Assembly (NCBI GenBank): GCA_903945495.1 | Contig: CAJAVU010000026.1 | Span: forward strand, 1 to 61,500 | DNA length: 61,500 bases | From: an uncultured Flavobacteriales bacterium | GTDB lineage: Bacteria; Bacteroidota; Bacteroidia; Flavobacteriales_D; Crocinitomicaceae | Reading direction: 5' to 3' | Part shown: in pieces, positions 7,288-52,332 of the stretch | How positions within the stretch are numbered: the stretch's first letter is position 1 | How the letters are laid out: each line of letters begins with the position of its first letter | Made by a program: the position numbers and the translations under genes | The notes under the pieces: model-generated | What the model was told of the DNA's origin: nothing | The model's database searches: none | What the model saw: only the letters and a program-made list of their open reading frames with translations

Positions 7288-9096
7288 TTAGTGCGCATGT
7301 GACCCTGCATCATCCAACGATACTCCTTGCTTACGTAAGATTCGGCCAACAACAAAAGCAAAAAGCGTTAAATATAAAAAGCAGAATCCACCGATGATAA
7401 ATGAAAATTGAATTCCTAATACATCCGATAATTTCCCTTGAATTGGAGGGATAATCGCTCCTCCTAAAATCATCATTACGAGAAAAGCAGAACCTTGTGC
7501 TTGATATTTTCCAAGTCCAGCCAATGAAAGTGAGAAAATGGATGGCCACATAATTGAACAAAACAATCCACACGACAAGAATGCGTAAATAGCAATTGTA
7601 CCTGTTGTATTAATTCCGACTAAAATTGCAATGACTCCTAAAATACCAAAAACACTCAAAGTTAATGCTGGTTTGTCGTTGGTTACAATAAATGCGATTA
7701 ATTGAATCACAACACAAGCAATGTACCAATACAAAGCTTCAATTGAATAACCTGATATCCATGTTAGACCTAGTACAAGACCAAATGCGGCAATTGGAAC
7801 GATGATTTTTAAGCGCATTTTCATTTTTTCAGATAAATCAAAGGCATTGATGGCGCCAGACCAACGTCCGATCATTAAACTTCCCCAGAACATGGCGATA
7901 TATGGTGCAATTTGCGAAGAACTGTGTGAGCCAAATGATTTTTGCTTCAACAATTCACCTAAATTACTTCCGACTGCAACTTCAACACCAACGTAAACAA
8001 AAATGGCTAGCATTCCCAATGATAATTGAGGATAACGCATAGCTCCCCAACCAGTTTGTTGTTTACTTCCGCGGAAAAATGCAAAGAAAATTCCTGCAAG
8101 AATCACCAACAATCCAGCGCTCAACCACATTAATCGGTTCTTTTCTAAAGGCTCTTTCAGTAGTTGAACATCTGATTTAATTTCTGTTATTTCGTGTTGA
8201 TATTGATGGTGATTTAAAATGATTTCAGCTGAATTTTTCTTCGTCGCGTCGAATACGGTATCCATTTTCGCGATTGAATCACATTCTTGCTCTAATTGGG
8301 TTATTTTAATGGCTGATTCGCTTTTATAACTGCTGAAAACAGGTATGAAACAAATTGCAAGGAACAAGGTCATTACTAACAACGTCAACATTGCTTTTGG
8401 TGATTTTTCTAATGGTTCACTCGCTGTTTCTTCAACTAACTTTCCGTCAGGAAGATTTTTTGAAAGCGCAAATAATGCTGAAACTCCAACGAACAACATT
8501 CCAACACACGCATAAAGAATAATCACTTTTGTCAGTGATAAGGATTTGATCATGTCATCACTGATTGCAGCAGAAGTTCCAAATAAAGCCAAAGCAACAA
8601 TCAAAGGTCCAATGGTTGTTCCAAGACTATTGATTGCTCCTCCAAAGCTGATACGATTTCCGCCAGTGCGCTCGTCTCCAATTAATATCATAAATGGATT
8701 CGCAGAAGTTTGTTGCAAGGAAAACCCTAAAGCAACAATGAATAATCCAAGTAACATTCCTGGGAATAAATTAGCATAAACCGAAACAATCATCGTTGCA
8801 GCACCAAACGCTGAAAACAATAATCCGTATACGATACTTTTTTTGTAACCCCATCGAGCAACATAATCTTTACCGAATGCAGAACTAAGAATGAATAATA
8901 ACAAGGCGCCTAAGTAATAGGCCAAATAAAATGCAAAATCAATTAATTGACTTTGAAATTGATCCAAATGAAAGTAATTTTTACAAAATGGAATGAAAAC
9001 ACTGTTTCCAGCCGCAATAAATCCCCAGAAAAAGAAAACACTGGATAGTGTAGCCAAAGCATTGTAATTTGTTGTTGGTTGTTGTTCGTTTTGCAT
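7288..9096 (-). CDS. FucP/GluP-like MFS sugar transporter with an inserted coiled-coil hairpin
   Basis: The 602-residue protein is a polytopic membrane protein of the fucose/glucose-galactose permease branch of the major facilitator superfamily, which brings monosaccharides in with protons or Na+. The N-terminal half has the family-typical FFFWGFIAAGNSVFIPFCKNYF and QQTSANPFMILIG. The C-terminal half has MFWGSLMIGRWSGA and GGAIIPPIQGKLSD. Between the halves (about residues 230-345) is an insert of two extra membrane helices joined by a charged, probably coiled-coil loop of about 65 residues; this explains the length, since the family is usually near 430. The gene diverges from the glucan operon at 9299 and shares its palindromic operator, so it probably imports the glucose released from beta-glucan. 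Confidence 0.85.
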   Translation of the reverse strand: MQNEQQPTTNYNALATLSSVFFFWGFIAAGNSVFIPFCKNYFHLDQFQSQLIDFAFYLAYYLGALLLFILSSAFGKDYVARWGYKKSIVYGLLFSAFGAATMIVSVYANLFPGMLLGLFIVALGFSLQQTSANPFMILIGDERTGGNRISFGGAINSLGTTIGPLIVALALFGTSAAISDDMIKSLSLTKVIILYACVGMLFVGVSALFALSKNLPDGKLVEETASEPLEKSPKAMLTLLVMTLFLAICFIPVFSSYKSESAIKITQLEQECDSIAKMDTVFDATKKNSAEIILNHHQYQHEITEIKSDVQLLKEPLEKNRLMWLSAGLLVILAGIFFAFFRGSKQQTGWGAMRYPQLSLGMLAIFVYVGVEVAVGSNLGELLKQKSFGSHSSSQIAPYIAMFWGSLMIGRWSGAINAFDLSEKMKMRLKIIVPIAAFGLVLGLTWISGYSIEALYWYIACVVIQLIAFIVTNDKPALTLSVFGILGVIAILVGINTTGTIAIYAFLSCGLFCSIMWPSIFSLSLAGLGKYQAQGSAFLVMMILGGAIIPPIQGKLSDVLGIQFSFIIGGFCFLYLTLFAFVVGRILRKQGVSLDDAGSHAH

Positions 9097-9234: not shown

Positions 9235-9253
9235 TATTGTACAAATTACAATA
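9235..9253. promoter_or_regulatory. Palindromic operator TATTGTA-CAAAT-TACAATA (site 1)
   Basis: This is a perfect 7-5-7 inverted repeat in the divergent region between the MFS transporter and the glycosidase operon. It ends 45 bases before the ATG at 9299, and a -7 like box TACATTTA lies just downstream at 9263-9270, so a bound protein would cover the -33 region. The same palindrome is at 19641-19659 and, with one mismatch, at 22763-22781. The likely binder is the NUDIX regulator encoded at 19706. Confidence 0.7.
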
Positions 9254-9298
9254 AGTTAATATTACATTTAGTTTAAATCTTCAATAAAAACGAGCCGA

Positions 9299-10633
9299 AT
9301 GATTAAAACTTTCTTGTTTGTCCTATTGTCTTTAGCTTGGTTGTTACCATCCAATTTGCATGCGCAAGTTCGAAAAGTTACGATTACGAAAGAAAGTAGT
9401 AAGTGGCAACTGCGCGTAAATAATGAGCCGTTTTATATTCGAGGTGCCGGAGGAACGGTACAAATGGATGCTGTTGTAGCGTGTGGAGGGAATACAATTC
9501 GAACGTGGGGAATCGAAAACGCACAGTCAATTCTTGATGAAGCTGAAAAAAAGGGTTTAAAAGTAATGCTTGGACTTTGGGTTCAGCACGAGCGCCATGG
9601 TTTTGATTACAACGATCAAGAAAAAATTAAGAATCAATTAGAAGGATTTCGCATCGCAGTTCGAAAATACAAAGATCATCCAGCTTTACTGATGTGGGGA
9701 GTTGGAAATGAGTATGAATTAGAATATTCGAACACGAAAGTATGGGCTGCGGTGAACGATATCGCGAAAATGGTTCACGAAGAAGATAAAAATCATCCAA
9801 CGTCAACGGTTACTGCTGGGACAAATGCTGAGAAATTGAATTTTGTTCAAACGGTGTTAACCGAAGTCGATATTTATGGAATTAATACCTACGGAGACAT
9901 TGAATCCGTAAAAAGTGTTTTGACGAATGGAAATTATTCGGGTGCATACATGATTACTGAGTGGGGACCAAATGGACACTGGGAATCTCCGAAAACGATT
10001 TGGGGAATGTCAATTGAACAAACAAGTTCTGAAAAAGCAGCTGTTTATTTAAAAAGATATCAAACGTGTATAGCTGCAGATAGCGCTCAATGTATTGGTT
10101 CATTTGCCTTTTTATGGGGACAAAAACAAGAATACACAAGTACGTGGTATGGACTTTTTAACGAAGATGGAATTCCAACCGAAGCGATTGATGAATTGAC
10201 GTATTGCTGGTCCGGTGCATACCCAACAAATAGAGCTCCTAGTGTTGATTCCATTTATTTCAATGAAAAGAAATTAGCGCCTAATTGTATTGTTAAAGCC
10301 AATACAAGCTATTCATTCGAACTTTTTGCAACAGATTTAAATAAGGATAAACTCAATTATACGTGGGAACTTTATCCAGAAAGCACCGATTTAAAATCAG
10401 GGGGAGATGCTGAAATGAAGCCACCGATTATCAATGGTAGGTTAAAAGGAAAAAATCAAGCCCAGGTGCAATTGAAGGCTCCGCTAAAAGAAGGACGTTA
10501 TCGCCTTTTTGTAAAAGTTTTTGATGGTGAAAAATTAGCGTACATGAACATTCCCTTCTATGTGGAACCAACGAATGATTCAGACCGAATTCATTTTAAA
10601 GAACAAACCTTAAAATCGTTCGATGAAGAATAA
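9299..10633 (+). CDS. Clan GH-A glycoside hydrolase (GH2-like TIM barrel), secreted
   Basis: The 444-residue product has a signal peptide (cleavage near ALA-like LHA-Q at 22-23), a TIM barrel over residues 25-305 and a C-terminal Ig-like domain (315-430). Catalytic residues fit clan GH-A: Glu138 in GVGNEYE as acid/base after strand 4, and Glu221 in MITEWGPNGHW as nucleophile after strand 7. The opening strands (NNEPFYIRGAGG, GGNTIRTWG) resemble the catalytic domain of GH2, but the usual GH2 sandwich domains are missing. The exact family is open; with GH16 and GH3 nearby, an endo-beta-glucanase such as GH158 is possible. It is the first gene of the operon and overlaps the next by 11 bases. Confidence 0.8.
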   Translation: MIKTFLFVLLSLAWLLPSNLHAQVRKVTITKESSKWQLRVNNEPFYIRGAGGTVQMDAVVACGGNTIRTWGIENAQSILDEAEKKGLKVMLGLWVQHERHGFDYNDQEKIKNQLEGFRIAVRKYKDHPALLMWGVGNEYELEYSNTKVWAAVNDIAKMVHEEDKNHPTSTVTAGTNAEKLNFVQTVLTEVDIYGINTYGDIESVKSVLTNGNYSGAYMITEWGPNGHWESPKTIWGMSIEQTSSEKAAVYLKRYQTCIAADSAQCIGSFAFLWGQKQEYTSTWYGLFNEDGIPTEAIDELTYCWSGAYPTNRAPSVDSIYFNEKKLAPNCIVKANTSYSFELFATDLNKDKLNYTWELYPESTDLKSGGDAEMKPPIINGRLKGKNQAQVQLKAPLKEGRYRLFVKVFDGEKLAYMNIPFYVEPTNDSDRIHFKEQTLKSFDEE

Positions 10634-12470
10634 ATTAAAACCTATCATTCTTACCGTACTTGGATTCGCTTCGCTGAATCTACAGGCTCAGTTGATCGAT
10701 TCTTCAGCGTTTGAACCGAAGAATAGTGGACTTTTCCCAAAGAAAATGCAAGCTACTATGAATACCATTACGGTGTCAGGTTATTACCGTTTCTTGGGTT
10801 GTTACACGCAGATGAAAGACCAATATCCTGAATTTGGGGATGTGAAAAACCGTGTCTTTCTGGGAGATGACAGTAATATTCCTCAGTTGATGTTGACCAT
10901 TGGAGGACGTCCGAGTAAAACAACTTCATTTTCAACAGATTTGTATTTGTGGACGCCGATGTCAGGAAGTGAAACGGATTATGTGAAAGGCTTAAATTTG
11001 GGTGTGAATCTAACTGGGACGCATTCAACAAAATATGGAACCTTTAGTGTGAAAACAGGTGGAATTCATTGGTATACAATTAGTCCTTTTACATTTGCTT
11101 CAAATACAGGTTACAACCGTTTCAGTGTTTTTGAGCGCAATCCGTGGGATCCTGCGATGAAAACGGTTTACGATCGTTACCACAAGTTTTACTCAGATGG
11201 AGCCTTAACGCAAGATACGCGATGGGGACAACAAGCATTTCAAGGATTTATTCTCGATGGAGTTCGTTTGCCAAAACAATTTTCGTTCGCTTACATGTAT
11301 GGTAAATCGCAATTTAATGGCGGGGCTTTGCCAACTCCAAATGCATTAATGGCTGGGAAAATCAAAAAAGAGTTCAGGAATAATTTCGTGAGCGTCAATG
11401 CGATTTCAAGTAAAACGTATACGGATAGTTTGGCGCGTTTGGCATTGGGATATAATTTAGTGACGTCCGAATTTAAACTGATCTGGAAAGAAATGCAGTT
11501 GTTAGGTGAAGTCGGAACTGGAAATTATTTTAGTCCAACAGCCACAGGGAAATGGGGAGAAGCCTTGGATTTAAAACTGCAATTTTCAAAAGAGTGGACA
11601 CATTTCCCACTTGAAGTACGCTATTTTCAAATTAGTCCAAATGTCATTAACAACAATGGTGTGTTTTGGAATTCATCAATTCAAGAATACAATGACAATT
11701 TTACAGGAGAACCAACTCCAGGTAGTCAAACTTCCTTAATTCCATTTGCGAGTTCGCTTGTTTCGATTGGTCAAATGACGAACAATCGCCGCGGTGTGAT
11801 TTTAAACATGGACATGGCGTTTAAAAAACATAAGTTAACCATCGGCTACAGTGCAGCAAGTGAATTAGTCGCGTTGTCCGATAAAATAACCTACGGACAT
11901 CCTGCGAATAATTTAGCATTGTCCAGATTTTGGCGTTGGGGCTTTCCAGCAGGAGTGGGGCCTTACGGAAATGTAAACAAGATTTATCGAGGTATTTATG
12001 AAACGGTTCAAATTACAGATTCAATCACTGCAAAAGGATTCAATTCATTGGAAATTAGTTACAAAACGGAGTTTAAACTGTTTGGAAAGGATATGTTGGT
12101 ATTTTATTTGGGAGGAATGCACAGTGTTCAATCGAAATTTTCGCCTTTACCGAAGTACTCAAAAGCAGCTTATTTGCAATCTTACAACAATCAGTTAGAG
12201 TTTTATTATTTACTGTTCCCGAAAGTAATTGTTTCGAATTACCTTGGCTATGATCGCATTTTAGCAAATGATCAAACTCTATTAGATGTCGTTACGAATA
12301 AAGCGAAAAATCAAGAAGGGTTCTCGTATGCGATTGGGCTTGATTTGCAATTAGCAAAAAACACAGGACTCTACATAAAACATCGCTGGATGAACTATCA
12401 AGACCGTAGTTTTTCACTTGATCATTACAATGGAACAGAAACAACAGTTGAACTTAAAATCTACTTTTAA
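10623..12470 (+). CDS. Porin-like outer-membrane beta-barrel protein of the glucan operon
   Basis: The 615-residue product begins with a signal peptide (MKNKLKPIILTVLGFASLNLQA-Q). It is made almost wholly of alternating amphipathic strands with many aromatic residues (ITVSGYYRFLGCYTQ, FSVKTGGIHWYTISPF) and ends in TTVELKIYF, the C-terminal Phe expected of an outer-membrane barrel. There is no TonB box or plug domain, so it is not SusC-like. The start codon lies inside the end of the hydrolase gene (11-base overlap), which indicates translational coupling. It probably forms a pore for oligosaccharides or binds them; that role is inferred from context only. Confidence 0.75.
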   Translation: MKNKLKPIILTVLGFASLNLQAQLIDSSAFEPKNSGLFPKKMQATMNTITVSGYYRFLGCYTQMKDQYPEFGDVKNRVFLGDDSNIPQLMLTIGGRPSKTTSFSTDLYLWTPMSGSETDYVKGLNLGVNLTGTHSTKYGTFSVKTGGIHWYTISPFTFASNTGYNRFSVFERNPWDPAMKTVYDRYHKFYSDGALTQDTRWGQQAFQGFILDGVRLPKQFSFAYMYGKSQFNGGALPTPNALMAGKIKKEFRNNFVSVNAISSKTYTDSLARLALGYNLVTSEFKLIWKEMQLLGEVGTGNYFSPTATGKWGEALDLKLQFSKEWTHFPLEVRYFQISPNVINNNGVFWNSSIQEYNDNFTGEPTPGSQTSLIPFASSLVSIGQMTNNRRGVILNMDMAFKKHKLTIGYSAASELVALSDKITYGHPANNLALSRFWRWGFPAGVGPYGNVNKIYRGIYETVQITDSITAKGFNSLEISYKTEFKLFGKDMLVFYLGGMHSVQSKFSPLPKYSKAAYLQSYNNQLEFYYLLFPKVIVSNYLGYDRILANDQTLLDVVTNKAKNQEGFSYAIGLDLQLAKNTGLYIKHRWMNYQDRSFSLDHYNGTETTVELKIYF

Positions 12471-12471
12471 A

Positions 12472-14163
12472 ATGAAATATATCTTAACATTCTGTCTAAC
12501 GATTTGTGCATTTACTTCTTTTTCACAGGAAGATAAAAAAGTGCAGTTTGTTGGAGGAGCGCGTTCTATTATTTCGAATGCTGATTTTAGTTCAGATCAA
12601 GAAGATACAGTAACGAGTCGTAAAAATTCTGGTGGATATGCATTGATTGATTTAGGCTTTAAAATAAATCCGAATGCGTCAACTGAGATTCTTGGAATGG
12701 TGCGTATTAAAAATGCATTTGGAGGATTTTGGGGAAGTGGTGTAACGTTCGATGTTCGTCAACTCTATGTAAAAGGAGTTGTAAAGAATGCCTTACGTTA
12801 TCAAATTGGTAACATTGATTACAAATTGACACCGTATACTTTTTACAATCACAATGCTGACTTATTGGTGCAATCTAGTTCAGTTTTGAAGATAAAAGAA
12901 GAAGTACTGAACTACGAATCGTTCTATAAAAACAATACTTGGCGTCAACAAGGTGCAGCAATTGATTTTGCACTTCAATTTCCGAAAGCAGTAGATGAAA
13001 TTAAAGTAAATGCCTTCATTACGCGTTTGAACCCGAGTAATTTGGGTAATATCCTTGAGCGCTTGTACGGTGGAGGAAATGTGATTTTTACCCAAAGTAA
13101 ATACCTTACGCTAGGATTTAACCATGTAAGTATTTTCGATTTAAAAAACACTGCTGTGAATGAGAATGCTTATCGCAACAATGTGAGCTCCGTTAATTAT
13201 AAAGCGACGCTTGATTTGAAAAAGCACATTTTTGGCATTAGCGGTGAATCTGGGTTTTCGTCGAGTGCACTTAGTTTAGACACAACAGGCGGTTTGAAGG
13301 ATTATTTCATTAATGTTCAAGCGAATTATCAGCACAAACAATCAGGTTTAAAAGCACACCTTGGATACATGGATAATGGAGCTGATTTCAGAAGTTTTGG
13401 TGCTCAAAGTAAACGAGTTGATTTCAACCAACTGAATAACTTCTACGAACGTTATACCAATGATCAAATTATTCGACCGTTGTCAAATTATGACTTATAC
13501 AATGATCCAACACTATATTCTAATTCAATAACTACAGGTATCATGGCGTATAATCCGGCCGTAAATAATGTTTTACCATATGGAATTGCAACGTTCAATC
13601 GCAGAGGTTTATTTGCTGGATTAACGGTTTCAAACAAAAAGGAAAGCATCAAGCTAGATGCGAAATATTATCGATTAGGTGAAGTGCGCGGACAAGGAAC
13701 AACAAAATTGAGAAACTTTAATTCAGTGAATGCTAATTTGGAATTCAATTTCTCAAAGATGTTTAATTGGAAAAAAGAGCAAAAATTGACTGCAGGATAT
13801 GCCTTCCAAGATACCAAAAGAACAAGTGATTTTTCCTTCGAACAAATTGCATTGAAATCAACAACCTTGAATTTAGGTTTAGAAATGGAATTGGTGGATG
13901 ATTTATACTTATTAGCGAATAGTTATTATTTCAAAAGCAAAGGAAATGAGTCGATGCCTGTTCGAAACGCTGAAGGTGATATCATCAACTATACGGCAAT
14001 GAACATTAGTGGTGAAGAATTATGTTTAGCAGGAGGATTGAAATACAATTTCACTCCATCGATTTACCTTGCAGCAATTTATGAAAGCAATACGAATTCC
14101 TTCAGTTCTGTGAGTTCGTACCGTTATAATCAGTTTTATATTTACTACATCATGAAATTTTAA
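12472..14163 (+). CDS. Second beta-barrel outer-membrane protein of the glucan operon
   Basis: The start chosen is the ATG at 12472, one base after the TAA of the previous gene, because it opens a clear signal peptide (MKYILTFCLTICAFTSFS-Q). The frame is open 18 codons further upstream, but those codons are read inside the preceding gene. The 563-residue product has barrel strands throughout (GYALIDLGFKINPN, FDVRQLYVKGVVKNALRYQIGNIDYKL) and ends QFYIYYIMKF with a terminal Phe. It shows no TonB box. It differs in sequence from the barrel at 10623, so the two may handle different steps or glucan sizes. Function is inferred from the operon. Confidence 0.75.
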   Translation: MKYILTFCLTICAFTSFSQEDKKVQFVGGARSIISNADFSSDQEDTVTSRKNSGGYALIDLGFKINPNASTEILGMVRIKNAFGGFWGSGVTFDVRQLYVKGVVKNALRYQIGNIDYKLTPYTFYNHNADLLVQSSSVLKIKEEVLNYESFYKNNTWRQQGAAIDFALQFPKAVDEIKVNAFITRLNPSNLGNILERLYGGGNVIFTQSKYLTLGFNHVSIFDLKNTAVNENAYRNNVSSVNYKATLDLKKHIFGISGESGFSSSALSLDTTGGLKDYFINVQANYQHKQSGLKAHLGYMDNGADFRSFGAQSKRVDFNQLNNFYERYTNDQIIRPLSNYDLYNDPTLYSNSITTGIMAYNPAVNNVLPYGIATFNRRGLFAGLTVSNKKESIKLDAKYYRLGEVRGQGTTKLRNFNSVNANLEFNFSKMFNWKKEQKLTAGYAFQDTKRTSDFSFEQIALKSTTLNLGLEMELVDDLYLLANSYYFKSKGNESMPVRNAEGDIINYTAMNISGEELCLAGGLKYNFTPSIYLAAIYESNTNSFSSVSSYRYNQFYIYYIMKF

Positions 14164-14166
14164 AGT

Positions 14167-15168
14167 ATGAAAAAATATCTTTTTTTAATCGTTCTTGGTT
14201 TGGGGCTAGTTGCTTGTCGCAAAGATGAAGTGAATCAATTTGATGGACCTTCTTTACAAGATTTAAATGGTGCTTTTGTAATCATCAATAGTTTACAAGC
14301 AAGTCAAGATTCTGTTGATTTTGCTGCTGGAGAAAGCGTTTATTTCACAGCTGATTTATCGAAAACGAGTGCTTGGAAAATTACGATCACTGGGCAAACG
14401 AGTGGAGCAGTAAAAGAAATTACTGGTTTAAGTAGTTCAATTGATGTGAGCCAAAGTTTGTGGACTGGAACCACGACCAACTTGCCAATTTTCAAGGCTG
14501 AAATGTGTAAGGTCGATTTAACCTTTACGAATGAGCCTGATACGTTGACGGTGTTTGTTAAAGTATTGGCCCCGAAAACGAATGCTGGATTTTTGATTTC
14601 AGATTTTGAATCAGGATTCAATGGAGGTTGGACATCATTCGTGCAAGCAGGCGCGAATATGGACTTTCAAATTAAATCGGATGGTTCAGCGCCTGAAGGT
14701 AATTCGTATTACAACATGGCAGGAATAGTTGATTGGGATTGGTTAATAGGTTTAGTGAATTTCAATGCGAGTGCATATGGCGCTTCGACCTTTCCGTTGT
14801 CATCAAATCCAAATAACGTTTATTTTAATGTTATGATGTATGGAGAACCTGGCTTGAACAATACATTGGTGTTATTTCAGTTCGAAGAAGATGAAAATGG
14901 AGATGGAGCATTTACCGCTGCTTCGGAAGATATGTATTCACTTCAAGTAACAGTGGATTGGGTTGGTTGGAAAATGGTTAGCATTAAATACAGCGATATT
15001 CCTTGTTTAGTGAATGGCTCTCCAGCAGCTCCAAATGGTGAAGGAACGCATCAATCGAATAAAATCAAAACGATTAATATGCTTCATTTGGCGAATCCAG
15101 TTTCAGGTTACGCTAAAGCTAAATTGGATTACATGATTTTTACTGAAAATGCACCTTTGAATCCTTAA
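14167..15168 (+). CDS. Surface lipoprotein, probable glycan-binding protein
   Basis: The 333-residue product has a lipoprotein signal peptide with the lipobox LVAC (Cys17) followed by RKDE. Residues 30-140 look like an Ig/PKD-type domain (FAAGESVYFTADLSKTSAWKITITGQ). Residues 142-330 form a carbohydrate-binding jelly roll that opens ISDFESGFNGGWTSF and closes INMLHLANPVSGYAKAKLDYMIFTE, the style of CBM11/CBM-like domains that follow Ig domains in Bacteroidota surface glycan-binding proteins. It lies 3 bases after the barrel gene. It probably holds beta-glucan at the cell surface in place of SusD/SusE; that role is inferred. Confidence 0.7.
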   Translation: MKKYLFLIVLGLGLVACRKDEVNQFDGPSLQDLNGAFVIINSLQASQDSVDFAAGESVYFTADLSKTSAWKITITGQTSGAVKEITGLSSSIDVSQSLWTGTTTNLPIFKAEMCKVDLTFTNEPDTLTVFVKVLAPKTNAGFLISDFESGFNGGWTSFVQAGANMDFQIKSDGSAPEGNSYYNMAGIVDWDWLIGLVNFNASAYGASTFPLSSNPNNVYFNVMMYGEPGLNNTLVLFQFEEDENGDGAFTAASEDMYSLQVTVDWVGWKMVSIKYSDIPCLVNGSPAAPNGEGTHQSNKIKTINMLHLANPVSGYAKAKLDYMIFTENAPLNP

Positions 15169-15171
15169 GCT

Positions 15172-16431
15172 ATGAAATTAATTTTTAGCTGTTTTTTGAT
15201 AATTTCAACACTATCGTTTGGTCAAGATTCCATTCAAAAGTTCGTTAAATTAAAAGAAGTTACAGTCATGCCCAAGCGGAAAATAGTTAAACCGCTTTCG
15301 CTTTATGACGAAGAGGTTGCACAAGTATATTCCATAAAAGGTTTTGATCAGCTGGTTATATTTGATAATGATTTATCGGAAGAGGTTTGGTCTACAAAAA
15401 ATGTGAATTGCGTTGATTTGACATTAAAAACAGATGTGAAAGACACTTTCTTGCAGGTAAAATGGAACAAAGATCAAGATGGATGTGATTGGGTTGGAAT
15501 GGGCTATGGTTGGGATATGTGGACAGGCAAAGATATGGCAGCAGTTCGAGATACACTAGCGATTCAACTTTTGGTTCGTTCAACGACTAAACCATTTACA
15601 AACATTCCCTGGGCTTTTGGATTTGAAGATTATTCGGGAAACCAAGCTTGGTTGGGGTATAATAAATCATTTTTATTAGCAAAAGAAATTGGAACCGATT
15701 GGACAAAAGTGGAAATTCCGATGTCGCTTTTCCCATTTGAGGAGAATGATTTTGATTTGTTCAATGTGAAACAATTAATTGTGCAGTTGTTTTCTGAAGG
15801 AACGATTGAAATCAACTCAATTCAACTTGTTCCTTTTTCTCGAAAATTGAAGGAGGAAATAAGTGTTTCACCAAGCAAAACTACTATTAAAATTGATGGA
15901 GAATCCTCTGATTGGAAAACATCAGAATTCATTAAAATTATTGGTGGACATCAAATGGCTCTGCATTATACTTCTGATGTTTTATACATTGGTGTGCATG
16001 TAAATGATTCTTCAGCACTGAAAAATGTTAATAAAGGAGCGGATTTATGGAAAGGTGATGCTGTTGAAATTGCTTTTGCAACAAACACAGAAGCAGATGA
16101 AAAACGCAATTATTATTTACTGAGTGATCAGCACATTGGTATTAATTGTGGGGCTGAAACGTACGCATGGGATTTCAAACGAAATACAGCATTAAACTCA
16201 CTCAACTATAAGTTAAAACGTGAAGAAAATGGTTATTTCATAGAATTAGCACTTCCGGTTAAAGAATTTTATTCAACTAGTTTGATGAACGGAACAACCC
16301 TGGGTTTTGAATTGGCAATTGATTTAGGATCTGAAGCAAATGTTCGCAAGCAACAAGATCGATGGAATAGCGCCTCTGCGGAAGGGTTTCATTTATCACC
16401 AAGTAAATGGGGGAGAATTCGATTGAATTAG
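15172..16431 (+). CDS. Secreted protein with two carbohydrate-binding jelly rolls (second CBM9-like)
   Basis: The 419-residue product carries a signal peptide (MKLIFSCFLIISTLSFG-Q). Residues 55-225 form a jelly roll of the CBM11-like type (FDNDLSEEVWSTKNVNCVDLTLK ... INSIQLVPFS). Residues 235-418 match a CBM9/DOMON-like sugar-binding domain: IDGESSDW at the start, LYIGVHVNDSS, DLWKGDAVEIAF and the closing WGRIRLN. No catalytic motif is visible. It is the last gene of the glucan operon, 3 bases behind the lipoprotein gene, and is followed by a strong terminator. It probably binds glucan in the periplasm or at the surface. Confidence 0.75.
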   Translation: MKLIFSCFLIISTLSFGQDSIQKFVKLKEVTVMPKRKIVKPLSLYDEEVAQVYSIKGFDQLVIFDNDLSEEVWSTKNVNCVDLTLKTDVKDTFLQVKWNKDQDGCDWVGMGYGWDMWTGKDMAAVRDTLAIQLLVRSTTKPFTNIPWAFGFEDYSGNQAWLGYNKSFLLAKEIGTDWTKVEIPMSLFPFEENDFDLFNVKQLIVQLFSEGTIEINSIQLVPFSRKLKEEISVSPSKTTIKIDGESSDWKTSEFIKIIGGHQMALHYTSDVLYIGVHVNDSSALKNVNKGADLWKGDAVEIAFATNTEADEKRNYYLLSDQHIGINCGAETYAWDFKRNTALNSLNYKLKREENGYFIELALPVKEFYSTSLMNGTTLGFELAIDLGSEANVRKQQDRWNSASAEGFHLSPSKWGRIRLN

Positions 16432-16451
16432 AAAACGAAATTTTATGCATA

Positions 16452-16487
16452 AAAAAATGGCCAAAATTACTTTTGGCCATTTTTTAT
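16452..16487. terminator. Bidirectional rho-independent terminator
   Basis: The arms AAAAAATGGCCAAAA (16452-16466) and TTTTGGCCATTTTTT (16471-16485) are perfectly complementary around a 4-base loop and give U-tracts in both directions. It lies between the convergent ends of the CBM9-like gene (16431) and the GH16 gene (16497) and serves both. Confidence 0.9.
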
Positions 16488-16496
16488 TTTTAGGTA

Positions 16497-17510
16497 TTAA
16501 TTTTTTGAAAATGAGATGCGTTTTGTTGTTCCATCTTCATTCTTAATCTCGAGAATGTAGTTTCCATTTGTAAGAAATGAAACATCAATAGAATTTTCGA
16601 TTTTAAGCTTGCTTTCAGCTAATTTCTCACCGTTTAAACTATAAATCGAATAGATAAACGATGTCGTACCATTGAGTCCTTCTAACGATAAAATATCATT
16701 CGTAGGATTTGGATAAACATTCAGATTACTCACTGCAAGCTCATTGATTGTCAATTCAGCCTGATCCTTGTAAACGCGAATATAATCGACTACAAAGTCT
16801 GCAGGGAAATTTGTTGTTCCGTCTGGATATCCTGGCCAATTTCCTCCAACCGCTAAATTTAAAATCAAATAAAATTCCTTGTGAAATTCGTCTGTTCCAT
16901 TGGTGCCATTCGTAATATTTAATAAATAATACAATTGATCGTCCATGTACCATTTTATGTAGGTTGAATCCCACATAATTGTGAAGGTATGAAATGCAGT
17001 TGGATCAGTATTGATGATGCCTCCTAAATATTGGTGACCAACATTATCCCAATGTGCAGTTCCATGAATTTTAGTTTCGCTATTGATGTGTTCCATAACA
17101 TCAATTTCACCACACATAGGCCAACTAACAGAGTCAATGTTTGATCCCAACATCCAGAAAGCTGGCCATAATCCTTTGCCCATTGGACATTTCATTCGGC
17201 CTTCAATTTTTCCGTATTGAATATCAAAAAGATTTTTGGAAATAATCTTTGCGGAAGTATATTCATTTGTGCCGAACTGCTCTGCTTTTGCTCTAAATGT
17301 AGCTTCACCATTTGCAATTGTTAAGTTAGCATTACCCGCAGTGTAATATTGTGCTTCGTTGTTTCCCCAGCCATTGCCTCCAACATCGTTAACCCATTTC
17401 GAATTGTCCAATGTTGAATTATCAAACTCGTCATTCCAAATCATAACCCATTGAGCTGAAGATTGGAAACTAATAAGTAAAACCGTAACTATAATTCCTA
17501 GTGTTTTCAT
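16497..17510 (-). CDS. GH16 endo-beta-1,3-glucanase (laminarinase) with T9SS type A sorting domain
   Basis: The 337-residue product has a signal peptide (cleaved after SSA, residue 19) and a GH16 jelly roll over residues 20-255. The catalytic signature is G134-E135-I-D137-V-M-E140-H: Glu135 is the nucleophile and Glu140 the acid/base. The substrate-contact strand WNDEFDNSTLDNSKW and GLWPAFWMLG fit laminarinases and related endo-beta-1,3-glucanases. The C-terminal 75 residues (NLNVYPNPTNDILSLEGL ... GTTKRISFSKN) are a type A sorting domain, so the enzyme is secreted by the type IX system and either released or surface-bound. It stands alone between two terminators. It should open the polymer before GH3 and the GH-A enzyme act. 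Confidence 0.93.
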   Translation of the reverse strand: MKTLGIIVTVLLISFQSSAQWVMIWNDEFDNSTLDNSKWVNDVGGNGWGNNEAQYYTAGNANLTIANGEATFRAKAEQFGTNEYTSAKIISKNLFDIQYGKIEGRMKCPMGKGLWPAFWMLGSNIDSVSWPMCGEIDVMEHINSETKIHGTAHWDNVGHQYLGGIINTDPTAFHTFTIMWDSTYIKWYMDDQLYYLLNITNGTNGTDEFHKEFYLILNLAVGGNWPGYPDGTTNFPADFVVDYIRVYKDQAELTINELAVSNLNVYPNPTNDILSLEGLNGTTSFIYSIYSLNGEKLAESKLKIENSIDVSFLTNGNYILEIKNEDGTTKRISFSKN

Positions 17511-17520
17511 TTTTTTGGAG

Positions 17521-17549
17521 TAAAAAAAAGGAGGGCAAAAGCCCTCCTT
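17521..17549 (-). terminator. Rho-independent terminator of the gene at 17569
   Basis: On the minus strand AAGGAGGGC-TTTT-GCCCTCCTT is a perfect 9-bp hairpin followed by a run of T. It lies directly downstream of the T9SS glucan-binding protein gene and 10 bases before the GH16 start, so it separates the two transcription units. Confidence 0.9.
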
Positions 17550-17568
17550 AAAGGTAATTAATTAAGAA

Positions 17569-19593
17569 TTAATTTTTCACTATTCGTGCAGTTTGTATAC
17601 CATTTGCTCCATGAACATTTACAGTATATAAACCAGCTTCTAATGAAGTGATGTCAAGTTCAACAACAAACTTGTTTGTTTCAGTCGAAAGAACTAATTC
17701 ACCAACTAAAGAATAAACTTCAATTTTTTCAATTGCTTTTGAACTTGTTAATGTAATCAATGCATTTGTTGGATTAGGGTAGATTGCAACATCCATTTGG
17801 CTGAATTCTTCTACTCCTAAGGCACATGGGCTACAACGATCATACGTGTTTGAAACATCACCTTGACCAAGAATCCATTGACGATTAGCATAAGAAGAAT
17901 AATCAGTTAATGGAGCACATCCACCACCATTTTGCATTTCAGAAATTAGGTTTTCCATCACACCATCTTTCACTAATAAATATTCAAGTGAATCGGTAGG
18001 CGCTGGAGAAATTGTGAACGTCCAAGTTCCATCGCCATTATCAACAGCTTGCGGGCCAAATGCTGGATTCCATTGCCAAATTGGACCTGTTAAATTAACT
18101 TGGTCTGCTGAATCACAGATTTCAGTTGTAATCACCAAATCTGGATATTCACATGGAACACAACGGTCGTAATTGATATTCACATCTCCAGAACCTACTA
18201 CCCACTTTCTATTTGCATAGTTGGAATAATCCGTAACCGGCGCACATGTTCCTCCATTTTGCATATCAGAAATTAAATTCTCCTGCACTGAATTCACAAC
18301 AACTAAATATTCCATATCTGCTGTTGGCGTTGGATTTAAATTAACAGTCCAAGTTCCATCACCATTATCTGTAGCGATTGGTCCACCATTTGGATCCCAA
18401 TTCCACCAAGGGCCTGTGATTCTTACTGAAGTAGCATTTACATTACAAACATCAATATTTAAGTTAAGACCAGAAGCTCCTGCTGCCATACTCAAATTAT
18501 CAAAGTAGTATGTTTTAGTTCCGGCTGTAGCCCCATCCACTCCAAAATTGAAAAAGACAGATGCTTTATTATAATTGTTGGCAAGATTAATAGCTGCTGT
18601 TCCAGGCGCTTGATTTGCAAAGTCAAAAGTTAAGGTTTGCCATTGACCAGCTGCAGTAGTTGTAGCCTCTGTTTCAACTGTTATTCCTGGATTTGTATAA
18701 TCTTCTACTTTTAAACGAACCTGAATACCTGCATCTGGAGACCAAACTTTCAGAGACATTGATGTTGCACCTGAAGCAAATGGAATTGGAGAAGCAAGAC
18801 CTGAATTACTAGCGTTAGTAATTGTTGTTCCTGCCCAAGTTGCAGCAGTATTTGATTTAATGACTTTCGCAACTGTATTAGTTGGGTCAGTTGGATCCAC
18901 TTCAATTGTTGAAAGTTCTGCTCCACCGAATCCAGCTAAACCATAATCTGTATTTGCTAATTCAAAAGTAACAGGTAAATCCATTTGATTTAAACCACCA
19001 CCTGAAACATAAGTTAGATCATCAAAGTAGTAAGTTTTAGTTCCAGCTGTAGCTCCATCCACACCAAAATTAAAAAAGACAGATGCTTTATCGTAATTGT
19101 TAGCTAAATTAATTGTTGCCGTCCCTGCAGCTTGATTTGCAAAGTTGAAAGTTAAGGTTTCCCATTGACCAGCTACTGTAGTTGTAGCTTCTGTTTCAAC
19201 GGATATTCCTGCATTCGTATGATCTTCCACTTTCATTCGAATTTGAATTCCTGCATCAGGAGACCAAACTCTTAATGACATAGATGTAGCACCTGAGACA
19301 AATGGAATCGGTGTTGCAAAACCTAGATTCCCGACGTCTGTGATGGTTGTTCCTGCCCAAGTTGCAGCAGTATTTGATTTAATGACTTTCGCAACTGTAT
19401 TCGTTGGGTCAGTTGGATCCACTTCAATTGTTGAAAGTTCTGCTCCACCAAATCCAGCCAAGCCATAATCTGTTGTTGCTAGTTCAAATGTAACTGGCAA
19501 GTCCATTTGATTTTGCGCAAAAAAGCTACTTAGAGGTAAGGTAGCTAATGAAAACGCAAAAATAATTTTGTGAGTAAATTTTTTGAATTTCAT
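17569..19593 (-). CDS. T9SS-secreted glucan-binding protein with a duplicated beta-sandwich module
   Basis: The 674-residue product has a signal peptide (to about residue 26). Two nearly identical modules of about 165 residues follow (about 29-195 and 203-368), each opening MDLPVTFELA and closing with a YYFDDL/YYFDNL strand; such modules accompany beta-glucanases in marine Bacteroidota. Two smaller repeats of about 95 residues (about 378-475 and 480-580) share LTGP-W-WNP, NGDGTW, NLIS-MQNGG, TDYS-YANR and a final YDRC-PC pair. A type A sorting domain ends the protein (MDVAIYPNPTNALITL ... ARIVKN). No catalytic residues are seen. It probably binds beta-glucan outside the cell. The gene has its own operator 48 bases upstream and a strong terminator. 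Confidence 0.85.
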   Translation of the reverse strand: MKFKKFTHKIIFAFSLATLPLSSFFAQNQMDLPVTFELATTDYGLAGFGGAELSTIEVDPTDPTNTVAKVIKSNTAATWAGTTITDVGNLGFATPIPFVSGATSMSLRVWSPDAGIQIRMKVEDHTNAGISVETEATTTVAGQWETLTFNFANQAAGTATINLANNYDKASVFFNFGVDGATAGTKTYYFDDLTYVSGGGLNQMDLPVTFELANTDYGLAGFGGAELSTIEVDPTDPTNTVAKVIKSNTAATWAGTTITNASNSGLASPIPFASGATSMSLKVWSPDAGIQVRLKVEDYTNPGITVETEATTTAAGQWQTLTFDFANQAPGTAAINLANNYNKASVFFNFGVDGATAGTKTYYFDNLSMAAGASGLNLNIDVCNVNATSVRITGPWWNWDPNGGPIATDNGDGTWTVNLNPTPTADMEYLVVVNSVQENLISDMQNGGTCAPVTDYSNYANRKWVVGSGDVNINYDRCVPCEYPDLVITTEICDSADQVNLTGPIWQWNPAFGPQAVDNGDGTWTFTISPAPTDSLEYLLVKDGVMENLISEMQNGGGCAPLTDYSSYANRQWILGQGDVSNTYDRCSPCALGVEEFSQMDVAIYPNPTNALITLTSSKAIEKIEVYSLVGELVLSTETNKFVVELDITSLEAGLYTVNVHGANGIQTARIVKN
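18470..19515. repeat. Internal tandem duplication of about 522 bp inside the glucan-binding protein gene
   Basis: Two copies at an offset of 522 bases (174 codons) encode the two beta-sandwich modules. Long runs are identical at DNA level; for example, the stretch starting at 18901 recurs at 19423. Synonymous differences are few, so the duplication is recent or kept alike by recombination. The repeat is in frame and leaves the reading frame intact. Confidence 0.85.
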
Positions 19594-19640
19594 AGTTTTT
19601 AATTTAAAGTTTTAAATTGTAAAGCTAATATAAATTAAAT

Positions 19641-19659
19641 TATTGTAAAAAATACAATA
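19641..19659. promoter_or_regulatory. Palindromic operator TATTGTA-AAAAA-TACAATA (site 2)
   Basis: A perfect 7-5-7 inverted repeat (8-5-8 when T19640 and A19660 are counted) lies 48 bases upstream of the glucan-binding protein start at 19593. A TAGCTTTA box on the minus strand at 19620-19627 is a plausible -7 element. It matches sites 1 and 3 in spacing and half-site. It also lies 47 bases beyond the 3' end of the NUDIX regulator gene. Confidence 0.7.
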
Positions 19660-19705
19660 AGGTAAAATATTTCTTGATAAAACAGTTAAAACTTAAATTT
19701 GTTCA

Positions 19706-20407
19706 CTACATTCTGAATTGATAAACACCTTTTTTTAATTGATCCTGATAAAGGGTTTCATCAAACGAAAATAATTTGGCAGGACGATGCTTGACATTTT
19801 GCTGTTTTTCGTCATGAGCAACTAAAGGAATGTACTTTATTTTTTTTCTAAAGTTTGCTTTATCCATCTCTTGTTCAAAAGCAAATTCGTACAATTGTTG
19901 AAATTCATTTAAGGTGAAACGGACTGGCAGAAGATCGAAACAAATTGGTTCAAACGTAAGTTTTTGTTTCAATAGCTCGTAAGTTGAATTTACTATCAAA
20001 TTATGATCAAAAGCCAAGTTTGGAACTTCGTTAATTGGAACCCATTGAACTTCTTCCGCCCAAGAGGAAGCTTCCGCTTTAAATTCATCTATACGGATTA
20101 AGGCAAAATATGCGTTCGTTATTACACGACCTTGTGGGTGTCTTGTTGGATTTCCAAAGGTTTGTGCTTGGTGTAATTCAATATTTTTTAATCGTGTTAA
20201 ATCAAACAATATACGTTCAGCCGCATTTGGCAAGTCTTCATCGGGATAAACCAAATCTCCTGGTATTGCCCAATAATTTTCATAAGGTTCAATGGAACGT
20301 TTAATGAGTAAAACATGAATTTTACCATTTTGATAACCAAAAATGACACAATCAAGCGAAAATGAATAGGTAAAGAAATTTTTTAAATCACTGTTATGCA
20401 TGTTCAT
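19706..20407 (-). CDS. NUDIX-fold transcriptional regulator (NrtR/AraR-like)
   Basis: The 233-residue product has a NUDIX domain (residues 10-150: SLDCVIFGYQNGKIHVLLIKRS, YENYWAIPGDLVYPDEDL) and a C-terminal winged-helix domain (160-233: LLPVRFTLNEFQQLYEFAFEQEMDKANFRKKI), the architecture of NrtR-family regulators. The NUDIX box is degenerate: the REUxEExGU part is replaced by AERILFDLTRLK, so hydrolysis is unlikely and the domain probably senses a sugar or nucleotide-sugar ligand, as in AraR of Bacteroides. It starts 6 bases after the GH3 stop and is co-transcribed with it. Three shared palindromes in this locus are its likely operators, which would include its own promoter. Confidence 0.85.
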   Translation of the reverse strand: MNMHNSDLKNFFTYSFSLDCVIFGYQNGKIHVLLIKRSIEPYENYWAIPGDLVYPDEDLPNAAERILFDLTRLKNIELHQAQTFGNPTRHPQGRVITNAYFALIRIDEFKAEASSWAEEVQWVPINEVPNLAFDHNLIVNSTYELLKQKLTFEPICFDLLPVRFTLNEFQQLYEFAFEQEMDKANFRKKIKYIPLVAHDEKQQNVKHRPAKLFSFDETLYQDQLKKGVYQFRM

Positions 20408-20413
20408 CGCTTT

Positions 20414-22729
20414 TCATTTTAATTCAAACGTGGTTTCCAAACTGCCAATTTCAATTGAAAAAGCTCCTGGTTCCAACATCCATTTTCCGTTCTGGTCTGC
20501 AAACATAAGGTCTTCTTTTGAAATGGTGAAATCTACACGCTTCGTTTCATTTGCTTCCAATGTAATTTTTTCAAAACCTTTCAATCGCTTTCCTGCCGGA
20601 ATTAAAGAACTTACCTTATCAGATAAAAACAATTGAACAACTTCTTGTCCTTTAATTTTACCCGTATTTTTCACGTTAATAGAAACGTGTAATTCTTCTT
20701 TGTCAGAAATAGTGCTTTTATCGACTGTTAAATCAGCATATTCAAATGTTGTATAACTAAGTCCAAATCCAAATTCCCACTCAGGATCAAAGGCCTTGAA
20801 ATCATTGTTTTTTGAACGGTCAACGCTTTTCGGATGGTCATAGAATTCAATTACTCCGTCGTATTTTGGATAGGTGTAAGGTAATTTCCCGGACGGATTC
20901 ACTTCTCCAAATAGAATGTTAGCAAGTGCCGACCCACCAAAATCACCAGGTAGATAACATTGTACAATCGCAGATGCTGAGTCCACAATCGAATGAATGA
21001 TACGTGGGCGTGCTTCAGTCAGTACAAGAATTACGGGTTTATTGGTTGAATAAGCAATTTCTGCTAACTCAAGTTGTGCAGATGATAAATTCAATGATCG
21101 AATATCACCTGGTTTTTCTGTTTGAGGTAATTCTCCTAAACACAATACAATCACATCACTTAAGTTTGCTTTTTCTTTGAAGTCAGCAACATCCGTCAAA
21201 CGAGATGTTTCAAATCCATTCTCGAAGTAGAGCTCAGCACCTTGTGAATAAAGGCAGTTTTCTTTTCCAACCTTTTGTTCAATTGCAGAATAAATCGTTG
21301 CAACATTTTTCGTGTTATAACTTGAGTCATATCCCTGCCATGTATGTGTCCATGCGCCATTTAAGTAAATCATATTATTAGCCGTTGGACCAGCAACGAG
21401 TATTTTTTTAGATTTTGCTAAAGGCAATAATTGTGCTTTATTTTTTAACAATGTGATTGATTCTTCAGCACTTTTTAAAGCGGTCAACTTAAATTCATTT
21501 GATCCAAACAAGGGATAGATTTTTGCTTGATTCATATCTTTATCAAACAACCCAAGACTTAACTTAACACGCAAAATTCGGCGGACAGCATCGTTCAAGC
21601 GGTTTTCTGAAATTCGACCATTTTTAACAGCGGTAATCATTAAATCGCAATACGCTTTGTAATTCGGACTTGTTGGAACCATGCTCATGTCAACTCCAGC
21701 ATTGAAGGCCATAACAACCGCATCTTCATTTGTTTTAGCCACTGAATGAACGGTTTCAAGCATGATAAAATCTTCCCAATCCGAAACCGTAAATCCATTA
21801 AATCCCCAATCGTTTTTTAGTACTTCTGTCAATAAATGATAATTTGTATGACCTGGAATACCATTTACGTCACCGCTGTTAATCATTAAGGTCATGGCTC
21901 CAGCTTCAACTGCTTCTTTAAATGGTGGAAGAAAAAGTTCTTGCATGTATTTTTCGGGAATCCAAGCGGGTGTGCGATCTCTTCCTGAAAGCGGTTGACT
22001 GTAACCTACAAAATGCTTCAAACAAGCAGCTCCATGATATTCATCAATCGCACCAGTTCCTTGATAACCATTTATGAGCTCTTTTCCCATGGACATTGCC
22101 AAGAAAGGATCTTCACCTAAGGTTTCAAAATATCTTGACCAAAGTGGTTGACGCGCAACATCCAAAACAGGTGAAAAATTCCAAGGAATGCCAGATGCTT
22201 TCATTTCATAGGCAGTAATTTCTCCAAAACGTTTTGCAAAAGAACGATTCCAAGTTGCTGCGAGTCCAATTTCTTGCGGAAACAATGTTCCTCCAATCGT
22301 GTAGTTCATTCCATGAATCGCATCAATACCGTATAAAATTGGAATGGTTGAATTCCCTTTTAAATAGGATTTATGAATTGTTGGAAGAAGCGATTTCCAT
22401 TCCTGTAAACTCAAGGTATGTGAACTAACATTAAGAACTGAACCTATTTTGTATTTGTTAATTGCTTCATTTAATTTATCGGCATCAATTTGATGTGGAT
22501 ATAGAGTTGCTCCTTTTTCATCCGATTTCAAAAGTGCATCCAATGTTATTTGACATGTTTGTCCAATTTTCTCCTCTAAGGACATTTTCGACAACAATTC
22601 AGTGATTTTTGTTTCAATTTCTTGATTTAAACCTTGATTAAAGTTTTGCGAAAAAGTACTACTTGATAACAATAGAAAAAACGGTAAAACACCAATTATA
22701 ACTGAATTAAAGCAATTTTTTTGTCTCAT
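20414..22729 (-). CDS. bglX: GH3 beta-glucosidase, periplasmic
   Basis: The start at 22729 is preferred because it opens the signal peptide MRQKNCFNSVIIGVLPFFLLLSSSTFS; an in-frame ATG at 22771 overlaps the operator. The 771-residue protein has the GH3 N-terminal barrel with PVLDVARQPLWSRYFETLGEDP and KHFVGYSQP, and the nucleophile Asp317 in GFTVSDWEDF. The alpha/beta sandwich follows (KKILVAGPTANN ... GELPQTEKPGD) and then a fibronectin III-like domain (YTTFEYADLTV ... VDFTISKEDL), as in BglX. It hydrolyses terminal beta-linked glucose from short glucans, giving glucose for the MFS transporter. It is the first gene of an operon with the NUDIX regulator and has operator site 3 upstream. The symbol is by similarity of architecture. 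Confidence 0.9.
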   Translation of the reverse strand: MRQKNCFNSVIIGVLPFFLLLSSSTFSQNFNQGLNQEIETKITELLSKMSLEEKIGQTCQITLDALLKSDEKGATLYPHQIDADKLNEAINKYKIGSVLNVSSHTLSLQEWKSLLPTIHKSYLKGNSTIPILYGIDAIHGMNYTIGGTLFPQEIGLAATWNRSFAKRFGEITAYEMKASGIPWNFSPVLDVARQPLWSRYFETLGEDPFLAMSMGKELINGYQGTGAIDEYHGAACLKHFVGYSQPLSGRDRTPAWIPEKYMQELFLPPFKEAVEAGAMTLMINSGDVNGIPGHTNYHLLTEVLKNDWGFNGFTVSDWEDFIMLETVHSVAKTNEDAVVMAFNAGVDMSMVPTSPNYKAYCDLMITAVKNGRISENRLNDAVRRILRVKLSLGLFDKDMNQAKIYPLFGSNEFKLTALKSAEESITLLKNKAQLLPLAKSKKILVAGPTANNMIYLNGAWTHTWQGYDSSYNTKNVATIYSAIEQKVGKENCLYSQGAELYFENGFETSRLTDVADFKEKANLSDVIVLCLGELPQTEKPGDIRSLNLSSAQLELAEIAYSTNKPVILVLTEARPRIIHSIVDSASAIVQCYLPGDFGGSALANILFGEVNPSGKLPYTYPKYDGVIEFYDHPKSVDRSKNNDFKAFDPEWEFGFGLSYTTFEYADLTVDKSTISDKEELHVSINVKNTGKIKGQEVVQLFLSDKVSSLIPAGKRLKGFEKITLEANETKRVDFTISKEDLMFADQNGKWMLEPGAFSIEIGSLETTFELK

Positions 22730-22762
22730 TTTTGTGTTCTTTTGGAGTAGAAAAATACTAAA

Positions 22763-22781
22763 TATTGTCATTTGTACAATA
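22763..22781. promoter_or_regulatory. Palindromic operator TATTGTC-ATTTG-TACAATA (site 3)
   Basis: A 7-5-7 inverted repeat with one mismatch (the last C of the left arm) lies 34 to 52 bases upstream of the GH3 start at 22729. It shares half-site and spacing with the perfect copies at 9235 and 19641. Since the NUDIX regulator is the second gene of this transcript, this site would give autoregulation. Confidence 0.65.
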
Positions 22782-52030: not shown

Positions 52031-52332
52031 GAGAGGTCAATTAAATCGTCGTCATCTTTTTGTGTTGCTCCGAATTTTTGGCGAAAATTAATGAAGTATA
52101 AAATCAATCCTAAAATAAAACCTGCTAGCGTAAAAGATACACTATTCCCAATTGCATACCCTAAGGAGTATGCTGTTCCGTCATAGGGTTTATCTGAAAA
52201 GTGCATGGAATACACACCATTCAAAAGCAAGGTAATTCCAAAAGCAATTAAGAAAGATTTTACCTTCGATTGCCCAGTGGAAAGGTATTGAAACACTAAA
52301 AAGTAGATAATGATATTGATGATAAGAATCAT
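52027..52332 (-). CDS. Small membrane protein of unknown function
   Basis: The start at 52332 (MILIINIIIYFLVF) is preferred; an in-frame codon at 52389 would add 19 residues and overlap the start of the divergent gene at 52388. The 101-residue product has three hydrophobic helices and a short acidic C-terminus (DDDDLIDLS). It overlaps the next gene by four bases (ATGA). No family is recognised. Confidence 0.6.
   Translation of the reverse strand: MILIINIIIYFLVFQYLSTGQSKVKSFLIAFGITLLLNGVYSMHFSDKPYDGTAYSLGYAIGNSVSFTLAGFILGLILYFINFRQKFGATQKDDDDLIDLS

Follow-up and report, generated by a model that had tools for sequence, protein, structure and literature searches.

Several described systems resemble, each in part, the locus studied here. 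BtAraR (BT0354) is the L-arabinose repressor of Bacteroides and belongs to the NrtR family (PMC4666351), as does XylR (BT0791), a Bacteroides regulator predicted to respond to xylose (PMC3878776, PMC4666351). Other members, the NrtR proteins of Shewanella and Synechocystis, are linked to NAD metabolism. Gut Bacteroides loci for 1,3-beta-glucan combine GH16_3, GH158 and GH3 enzymes under a hybrid two-component sensor, and GH158 is the family in which a Bacteroides endo-beta-1,3-glucanase was characterised (PMC7157763). Here, we describe a locus in 61,500 nucleotides of DNA from an uncultured Flavobacteriales bacterium of the Crocinitomicaceae (assembly GCA_903945495.1, contig CAJAVU010000026.1, positions 1 to 61,500), a stretch referred to below as the window. 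Like the gut loci, it encodes GH16, GH158 and GH3 enzymes, the first of which was assigned to GH16 only. Unlike them, it carries a one-component Nudix regulator, and no SusC/SusD pair was seen among the domain-scanned genes of the locus. The regulator and its palindromic sites form a real, conserved regulon of the NrtR/AraR kind, in which the substrate and the altered operator code are new. The locus represents a testable second way to run a GH16/GH158/GH3 gene set, by means of a one-component and possibly glucose-responsive Nudix regulator. The first-pass annotation of the window had suspected that a beta-glucan regulator of this type was undescribed. In agreement with this, no Nudix or NrtR regulator of laminarin, glucan, polysaccharide, Entner-Doudoroff or glucose response was found in targeted searches of the open-licence literature, although one may have been described in other papers or in a database of regulons. 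The accessible part of PMC12313589 mentions neither Nudix, NrtR nor GH158.

A degenerate Nudix regulator and its palindromes

The regulator comprises 233 residues and matches the Pfam families NrtR_WHD (1.7e-17), NUDIX (1.8e-10) and AraR_C (5.6e-10), all above cut-off. Its N-terminal Nudix-like domain is followed by an NrtR-type winged helix, which is the architecture of the NrtR family. The first-pass annotation had placed the protein with NrtR and AraR; this assignment holds, but the nearest characterised relative is AraR and not NrtR. BtAraR (5bs6) matches residues 13-222 with an E-value of 5e-48, NrtR is more distant (3.6e-21), and Foldseek with the predicted structure ranks AraR first (5.7e-19) and NrtR second among distinct proteins. 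The NrtR proteins of NAD metabolism share the domain architecture and presumably the repressor logic, but they are more distant in sequence and differ in pocket and gene context. The window gene is surrounded by glucan genes, its product scores 145 bits with the NCBIfam NtrR model against a cut-off of 400, and it does not belong to this group.

With BtAraR, the window protein has in common the fold, similarity over nearly the full length, the winged-helix sequence D-K-x-N-F-R-K, a degenerate Nudix box and the Arg-Arg-His triad that hydrogen-bonds arabinose (R34, R86 and H131 in BtAraR; R37, R89 and H135 here). Compared with the Nudix signature GX5EX7REUXEEXGU, as quoted in PMC4666351, its box reads D51, E57, R65, I66, D69, L70 and R72, with three glutamates and two glycines replaced, and the domain is predicted to be catalytically inactive. 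BtAraR is far off in the tree, and its arabinose pocket is not retained as a whole: F36 and F49, which line C4 and C5, are replaced by I39 and L52, and G48 by D51. Among the family orthologues compared, G50-D51-L52 is invariant while position 39 varies. Such a pocket may accommodate a hexose, with D51 close to O4 or O6. Orthology to XylR, for which BT0791 was judged via nine proteins encoded beside xylose isomerase, is not supported. These proteins share its family and show 34-39 per cent identity with the window regulator, but their pockets read GSL, GDF, GGF or GGL, they fall outside its supported set of 20 rows in a quick tree, and the neighbours of the window gene are glucan genes.

Palindromes of the type TATTGTA-N5-TACAATA had been noted at three places in the window, two of them perfect, and it had been proposed that a transporter, a glycoside hydrolase operon, a surface protein and the GH3-regulator operon form one regulon. 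Positions and mismatches are confirmed (Table 1), and the sites lie 33-47 bp before the start codons of the GH158, surface protein and GH3 genes. The longest open reading frame for GH3 begins at 22771, within the third palindrome, and ATG 22729 opens a signal-peptide-like N-terminus, which is why the start was set at the latter position. In the whole genome (3,642,191 bases), two perfect and two one-mismatch copies are present, where 0.03 perfect copies and 1.6 at up to one mismatch would be expected from a first-order Markov model based on the window. Three of the four are intergenic and located within 13.5 kb at the glucan locus. The fourth, with one mismatch (C30:35240), falls in an open frame that spans 1006 codons or more and was rejected as a member of the regulon. 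Strict intergenic matches are confined to the glucan locus and do not spread to unrelated genes. Only near-perfect sites are informative, because at up to three mismatches the window is unremarkable (11 matches versus a shuffle mean of 7.6, with 16 of 100 shuffles equally high). Genome-wide searches with up to two mismatches (56 matches versus 48 for the reversed pattern) or with a relaxed pattern (18 versus 16 for the control) gave no clear excess, and we therefore claim no further members in this genome. A TAGTGTA-like copy at position 52126 of the window is probably due to chance; it overlaps a 120-residue frame between genes for an SH3-domain protein and a SecDF-head protein.

Conservation of sites and targets in relatives

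Orthologues of the regulator were drawn from 149 related genomes and from named contigs, and 53 distinct contigs (L046-L098) were read at length. By the named records, the family of these orthologues is the Crocinitomicaceae. The nearest such record, a metagenome-assembled genome of this family, encodes a regulator with 93 per cent identity in a collinear locus. Intergenic copies that deviate at no more than one base are present, anywhere in the stretch read, in 46 of the 53 orthologous loci, many of which are close kin and therefore do not amount to 53 independent cases. Altogether, the 53 loci contain 110 such copies in 881,896 bases, while the reversed control yielded none. The conservation near orthologues that the first-pass annotation had named as a check on its proposal is thus borne out, and the grouping of transporter, hydrolase operon, surface protein and GH3-regulator operon into a single regulon is supported. 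An unbiased search across the 149 genomes returned 56 perfect copies in 35 genomes versus five for the reversed control. It might be argued that the palindromes arise by chance or represent terminators or hairpins in AT-rich intergenic regions, as the AT content is 64 per cent and looser patterns barely exceed their controls, if at all. The excess over expectation in the genome and over controls in the 53 loci and in the 149 genomes led us to reject both explanations, which we regard as extremely improbable.

The distribution of perfect copies follows the regulator. Of the family genomes, 33 encode the regulator (E <=4e-88), and 21 of these contain a perfect copy; among the 57 without the regulator, five do (Fisher 5e-8). 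In two of the latter five the copy lies at a GH158 gene, no regulator having been found in the draft, and in the other three within open frames. When the 25 family loci from the unbiased search are considered (one per genome), 17 adjoin genes for GH158, MFS, GH3, SusC or surface proteins. Among the other eight, two precede genes for secretion-tail, lectin or PKD domain proteins, four lie within open frames, and two are unassigned. Positions that had not been selected for are conserved as well in 43 non-redundant sites, of which 36 have C or G at position -1 and 37 have T at position 0.

Gene order varies among relatives, the regulator gene residing behind GH3 in some genomes and behind the MFS gene in others, and the site moves with the promoter while the gene order changes. 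Where the gene start was seen, a copy preceded SusC in 24 of 32 loci, MFS in 15 of 25, GH3 in 13 of 42, GH158 in three of five and G6PD in two of four. Operon-internal genes were scored as misses in this count, and in many of the loci without a copy before GH3 this gene does not open its operon. The MFS count, together with the site that the window transporter shares at a distance of 138 bp, argues for the membership of the transporter. In relatives, the regulon appears also to include SusC/SusD and, in two loci, Entner-Doudoroff genes, as is supported by the positions of the sites. A perfect copy is situated between GH158 and MFS in four further genomes (G002, L145; G005, L150; G016, L147; G025, L144) and in L046, and copies just past the 3' end of the regulator gene are present in many orthologous loci. 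The suggested autoregulation fits these arrangements: the regulator gene is located behind GH3 or MFS within one operon, and copies precede these genes in many, if not all, loci, so that the regulator may well control its own expression.

Paired operators about 130-150 bp apart precede SusC in L047 (10715 and 10864), L059 (10719 and 10847), L049 and others, an arrangement that leaves room for looping or two promoters. In L098, from position 1228 onward, the regulator orthologue is interrupted by internal stop codons, and a one-mismatch site persists downstream.

Recognition helix, operator base -7 and the paralogue

In the structure of BtAraR with DNA, K179 contacts G at -7 and R180 intercalates beside it (PMC4666351). 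The register of the operator core is the same in both systems, and in both sugar genes and the regulator's own operon are among the targets. According to the table in PMC4666351, however, the BtAraR core is GTGT at -7 to -4 and the window operator has TTGT in its place, yielding TTGT-N7-ACAA instead of GTGT-N7-ACAC. The DNA-contacting residues K179, R180, N181 and K184 of BtAraR correspond to K183, A184, N185 and K188, i.e., the intercalating arginine is replaced by alanine. The same holds for the family orthologues compared, while L188 and L189, from another family, have proline. The window regulator and its relatives constitute a natural test of the role of AraR's intercalating arginine.

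To relate helix and operator, 88 regulators differing by at least 10 per cent were collected, 79 of them from single-regulator loci, and palindromes were accepted if they had the GT/AC core, with base -7 left free. A nearby palindrome was present for 43 of the 79. Regulators with Lys or Arg at 183 and Arg at 184 were accompanied by G at -7 in 10 of 11 cases, those with any other combination in none of 32. The sister pair L197 (KRN, TAGTGTA) and L198 (TRN, TATTGTA), which has a support of 100/100, differs by K versus T at 183 and G versus T at -7. Xylose-linked proteins with T183 (L231) or I183 (L232) go along with TATTGTC palindromes. Base -7 of the operator thus appears to follow helix residues 183 and 184, a relation for which independent lineages are too few to reach significance. 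A tree calculated without the helix columns contains three helix changes and two motif changes; of three independent pairs two agree and one does not differ (sign test p 0.5), and with so few independent changes the rule falls short of significance when relatedness is taken into account. The rule is further weakened by exceptions (L106, and L229 with I183 and K184) and by the 36 of 79 regulators for which no site was found (22 of 38 with and 14 of 41 without Arg184), partly since some loci had a flank of only about 1.5 kb.

A paralogue with 42 per cent identity is encoded on contig C30 of the same genome (L112:373-1116), beside GAPDH and a gene for a BadF-type ATPase that is perhaps a sugar kinase (match below the Pfam cut-off). 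One of its relatives (L119) resides ahead of G6PD-PGL-EDD, TAGTGT-type palindromes are found near some copies (L220, L223), and the paralogue possibly acts as an Entner-Doudoroff regulator. Its clade (clade B, as opposed to clade A of the window regulator) has KRN helices and nearby sites of the TAGTGT or AAGTGT type, although most loci gave none. Perfect copies of TAGTGTA-N5-TACACTA numbered 13 in 11 of the 149 genomes versus 12 control copies in 11; the motif is not enriched overall, and the only informative copies are those adjoining a clade B regulator (L220, L223) or G6PD (L218). In principle, the paralogue or another transcription factor of the genome could be the true owner of the TATTGTA palindrome and the Nudix gene of the window a bystander. 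The two proteins are of one family, and a putative operator of the paralogue departs from the TATTGTA type at two bases per half-site pair. However, the helices and sites of clade B are of another type, an intergenic TATTGTA copy is near clade B in only two of 13 loci, both in genomes that also possess a clade A regulator, and perfect copies occur in step with the clade A gene. We therefore give very little credence to a different owner, and it is very likely, judging from these sequence relationships, that the clade A regulator binds the palindromes.

The clade A regulator is conserved in a family represented here mainly by metagenome-assembled genomes, and relatives with about 45-50 per cent identity adjoin GH158 in other Bacteroidota families (e.g., L166-L168, L170, L173, L186 and L203-L205). 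The DNA code would permit regulons to be called in uncultured genomes. A member of another clade, L128, is encoded beside NAD-metabolism genes and has Q at 37, GG at 50-51 and the operator TTGTGTA; Q at 37 and GG at 50-51 recur in L201 and L202. In L200 (7981-9359), two tandem Nudix regulators with an unusual pocket (H at 37, GGW) are divergent from a SusC/SusD pair.

Proposed mechanism, effector and genes of the locus

We propose that the regulator would act as a dimeric repressor of the NrtR/AraR kind, in which the Nudix domain, having lost its catalytic glutamates, would serve as a sugar pocket. The sugar-free dimer would place its winged helices on the 19-bp operator, which would overlap the -33 region for the GH158 operon and the MFS gene, the surface-protein/GH16 operon and the GH3-regulator operon, and RNA polymerase would therefore be excluded. 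Upon cleavage of beta-1,3-glucan by GH16, GH158 and GH3 and import of glucose via the GluP-like transporter, the pocket would be occupied by free glucose or a near metabolite, which would swing the winged helices off the DNA and derepress the promoters, including the regulator's own. Taken as a whole, a Nudix repressor that controls beta-1,3-glucan genes from these palindromes and is relieved by a glucose-type signal is a mechanism in which we place considerable confidence.

The operator was placed relative to the -7/-33 promoter consensus. In 45 of 65 non-redundant site-gene pairs the site is within 64 bp of the start codon, and a -7-like element is present downstream of the 43 sites in five cases at offset 5 and in six at offset 6, where 200 shuffles gave four at most. 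It could be envisaged that the protein is instead an activator, or that its effect differs by promoter, with a distal second site some 130-150 bp off before SusC serving for looping. The paired sites in L047, L049, L059 and others as well as the 138 bp between site and MFS gene in the window agree with such a role. It is, on the other hand, at odds with the characterised NrtR proteins, which have been described as repressors, with BtAraR, which binds its operator without arabinose and releases it with arabinose (PMC4666351), and with the close spacing of most sites to start codons and the modest -7-like signal downstream. We consider activation unlikely and repression likely.

The chances that glucose is the effector are about even. 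Pocket and gene content point in this direction, a further hint being that the transporter is nearest to GluP, if under the cut-off of that model. The strongest argument for glucose, or for a metabolite removed from it by one or two steps, is the association with BadF-type, GAPDH and G6PD-PGL-EDD genes: a copy precedes G6PD in L078, L079 and L182, and in L078 a TATTGTA site is situated between the BadF-type gene and G6PD-PGL-EDD. The same regulator and sites might respond to another effector, be it laminaribiose or an oligosaccharide, glucose-6-phosphate, an Entner-Doudoroff intermediate or, as with NrtR, ADP-ribose/NAD, a proposition that we take seriously while leaning somewhat away from it. 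Two residues of the conserved triad R37, R89 and H135 are spatially conserved in the ADP-ribose-binding SoNrtR, and the very neighbours just named render a phosphorylated intermediate plausible, too. Against it speak the differing pocket and operator of the NAD-linked L128 and the binding of a free sugar by BtAraR (PMC4666351); neither point is decisive.

Several findings do not sit well with the repressor mechanism on glucan operators. In seven of the 53 orthologous loci (L048, L081, L082, L085, L086, L089 and L095), no intergenic copy was present at up to one mismatch; four of these, L081, L085, L086 and L089, carry a two-mismatch copy with a TATAGTA arm. No perfect copy occurs in 12 of the 33 family genomes with the regulator. 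The -7-like element is also found at offset 14 in five of the 43 sites, so its signal is modest, and because offset 14 scores nearly as high, an operator over -33 is a moderate inference only. The structure model of the regulator is middling (pLDDT 71.6, one prediction), and the kinase label beside G6PD rests on BadF-family matches under the Pfam cut-off. On a broader scale, we tentatively suggest, with rather less than even confidence, that the Nudix branch with the GDL pocket (G50-D51-L52) could be the glucose sensor for GH158 beta-1,3-glucan loci and Entner-Doudoroff genes in environmental Bacteroidota, replacing the hybrid two-component sensors of the gut, with specificity provided by Lys/Arg183 plus Arg184 (G at -7) and with loss of either leading to T or A.

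Table 1 Palindromes and genes of the glucan locus in the window
Feature	Position	Strand	Evidence and context
Operator 1	9235..9253		TATTGTA-N5-TACAATA, 0 mismatches; between MFS transporter (138 bp) and GH158 operon (45 bp to ATG 9299)
Operator 2	19641..19659		0 mismatches; 47 bp upstream of T9SS (type IX secretion system) surface protein (ATG 19593); directly past 3' end of regulator gene
Operator 3	22763..22781		1 mismatch; 33 bp upstream of GH3-regulator operon (ATG 22729)
Regulator, degenerate Nudix plus winged helix (NrtR/AraR kind)	19706..20407	-	Pfam domains, BtAraR match
GH3 beta-glucosidase, first gene of regulator operon, 6 bp gap	20414..22729	-	Pfam GH3; best PDB match BoGH3B, 1e-189
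MFS sugar transporter	7288..9096	-	MFS_1; nearest named model GluP (glucose/galactose), gluP 173.9 bits, under cut-off 202.55
GH158 (endo-beta-1,3-glucanase family), first gene of + operon	9299..10633	+	9oro GH158, 1.1e-85
unkB, conserved, family unassigned, 615 residues	10623..12470	+	Present in relatives' GH158 operons
unkC, conserved, family unassigned, 561 residues	12478..14163	+	Present in relatives' GH158 operons
CBM11-like protein, GH158 operon	14167..15168	+	Weak match, below cut-off
CBM9-like protein, GH158 operon	15172..16431	+	CBM9_1, 3.2e-15
GH16 laminarinase-type endo-beta-1,3-glucanase, T9SS tail	16497..17510	-	LamCAT laminarinase, 2e-71
Surface protein with T9SS sorting tail	17569..19593	-	Por_Secre_tail, 5.5e-11

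The enzyme families also bear on the substrate. The first-pass annotation had named beta-glucan, which stands and can be refined: with a GH16 enzyme nearest to laminarinases, GH158 and GH3, the substrate is most likely a laminarin-type beta-1,3-glucan. Laminarin itself ranks among the major storage glucans of algae. For the surface protein, a role in glucan binding is putative. The products of unkB and unkC gave no match in Pfam, NCBIfam or PDB and are candidates for new glucan-binding or glucan-active families. Homologues are encoded in L050, L198, L204 and L205, and they accompany GH158 across Bacteroidota families. Outside the locus, an open frame of 2401 residues extends on the + strand of the window from 38672 to 45877.

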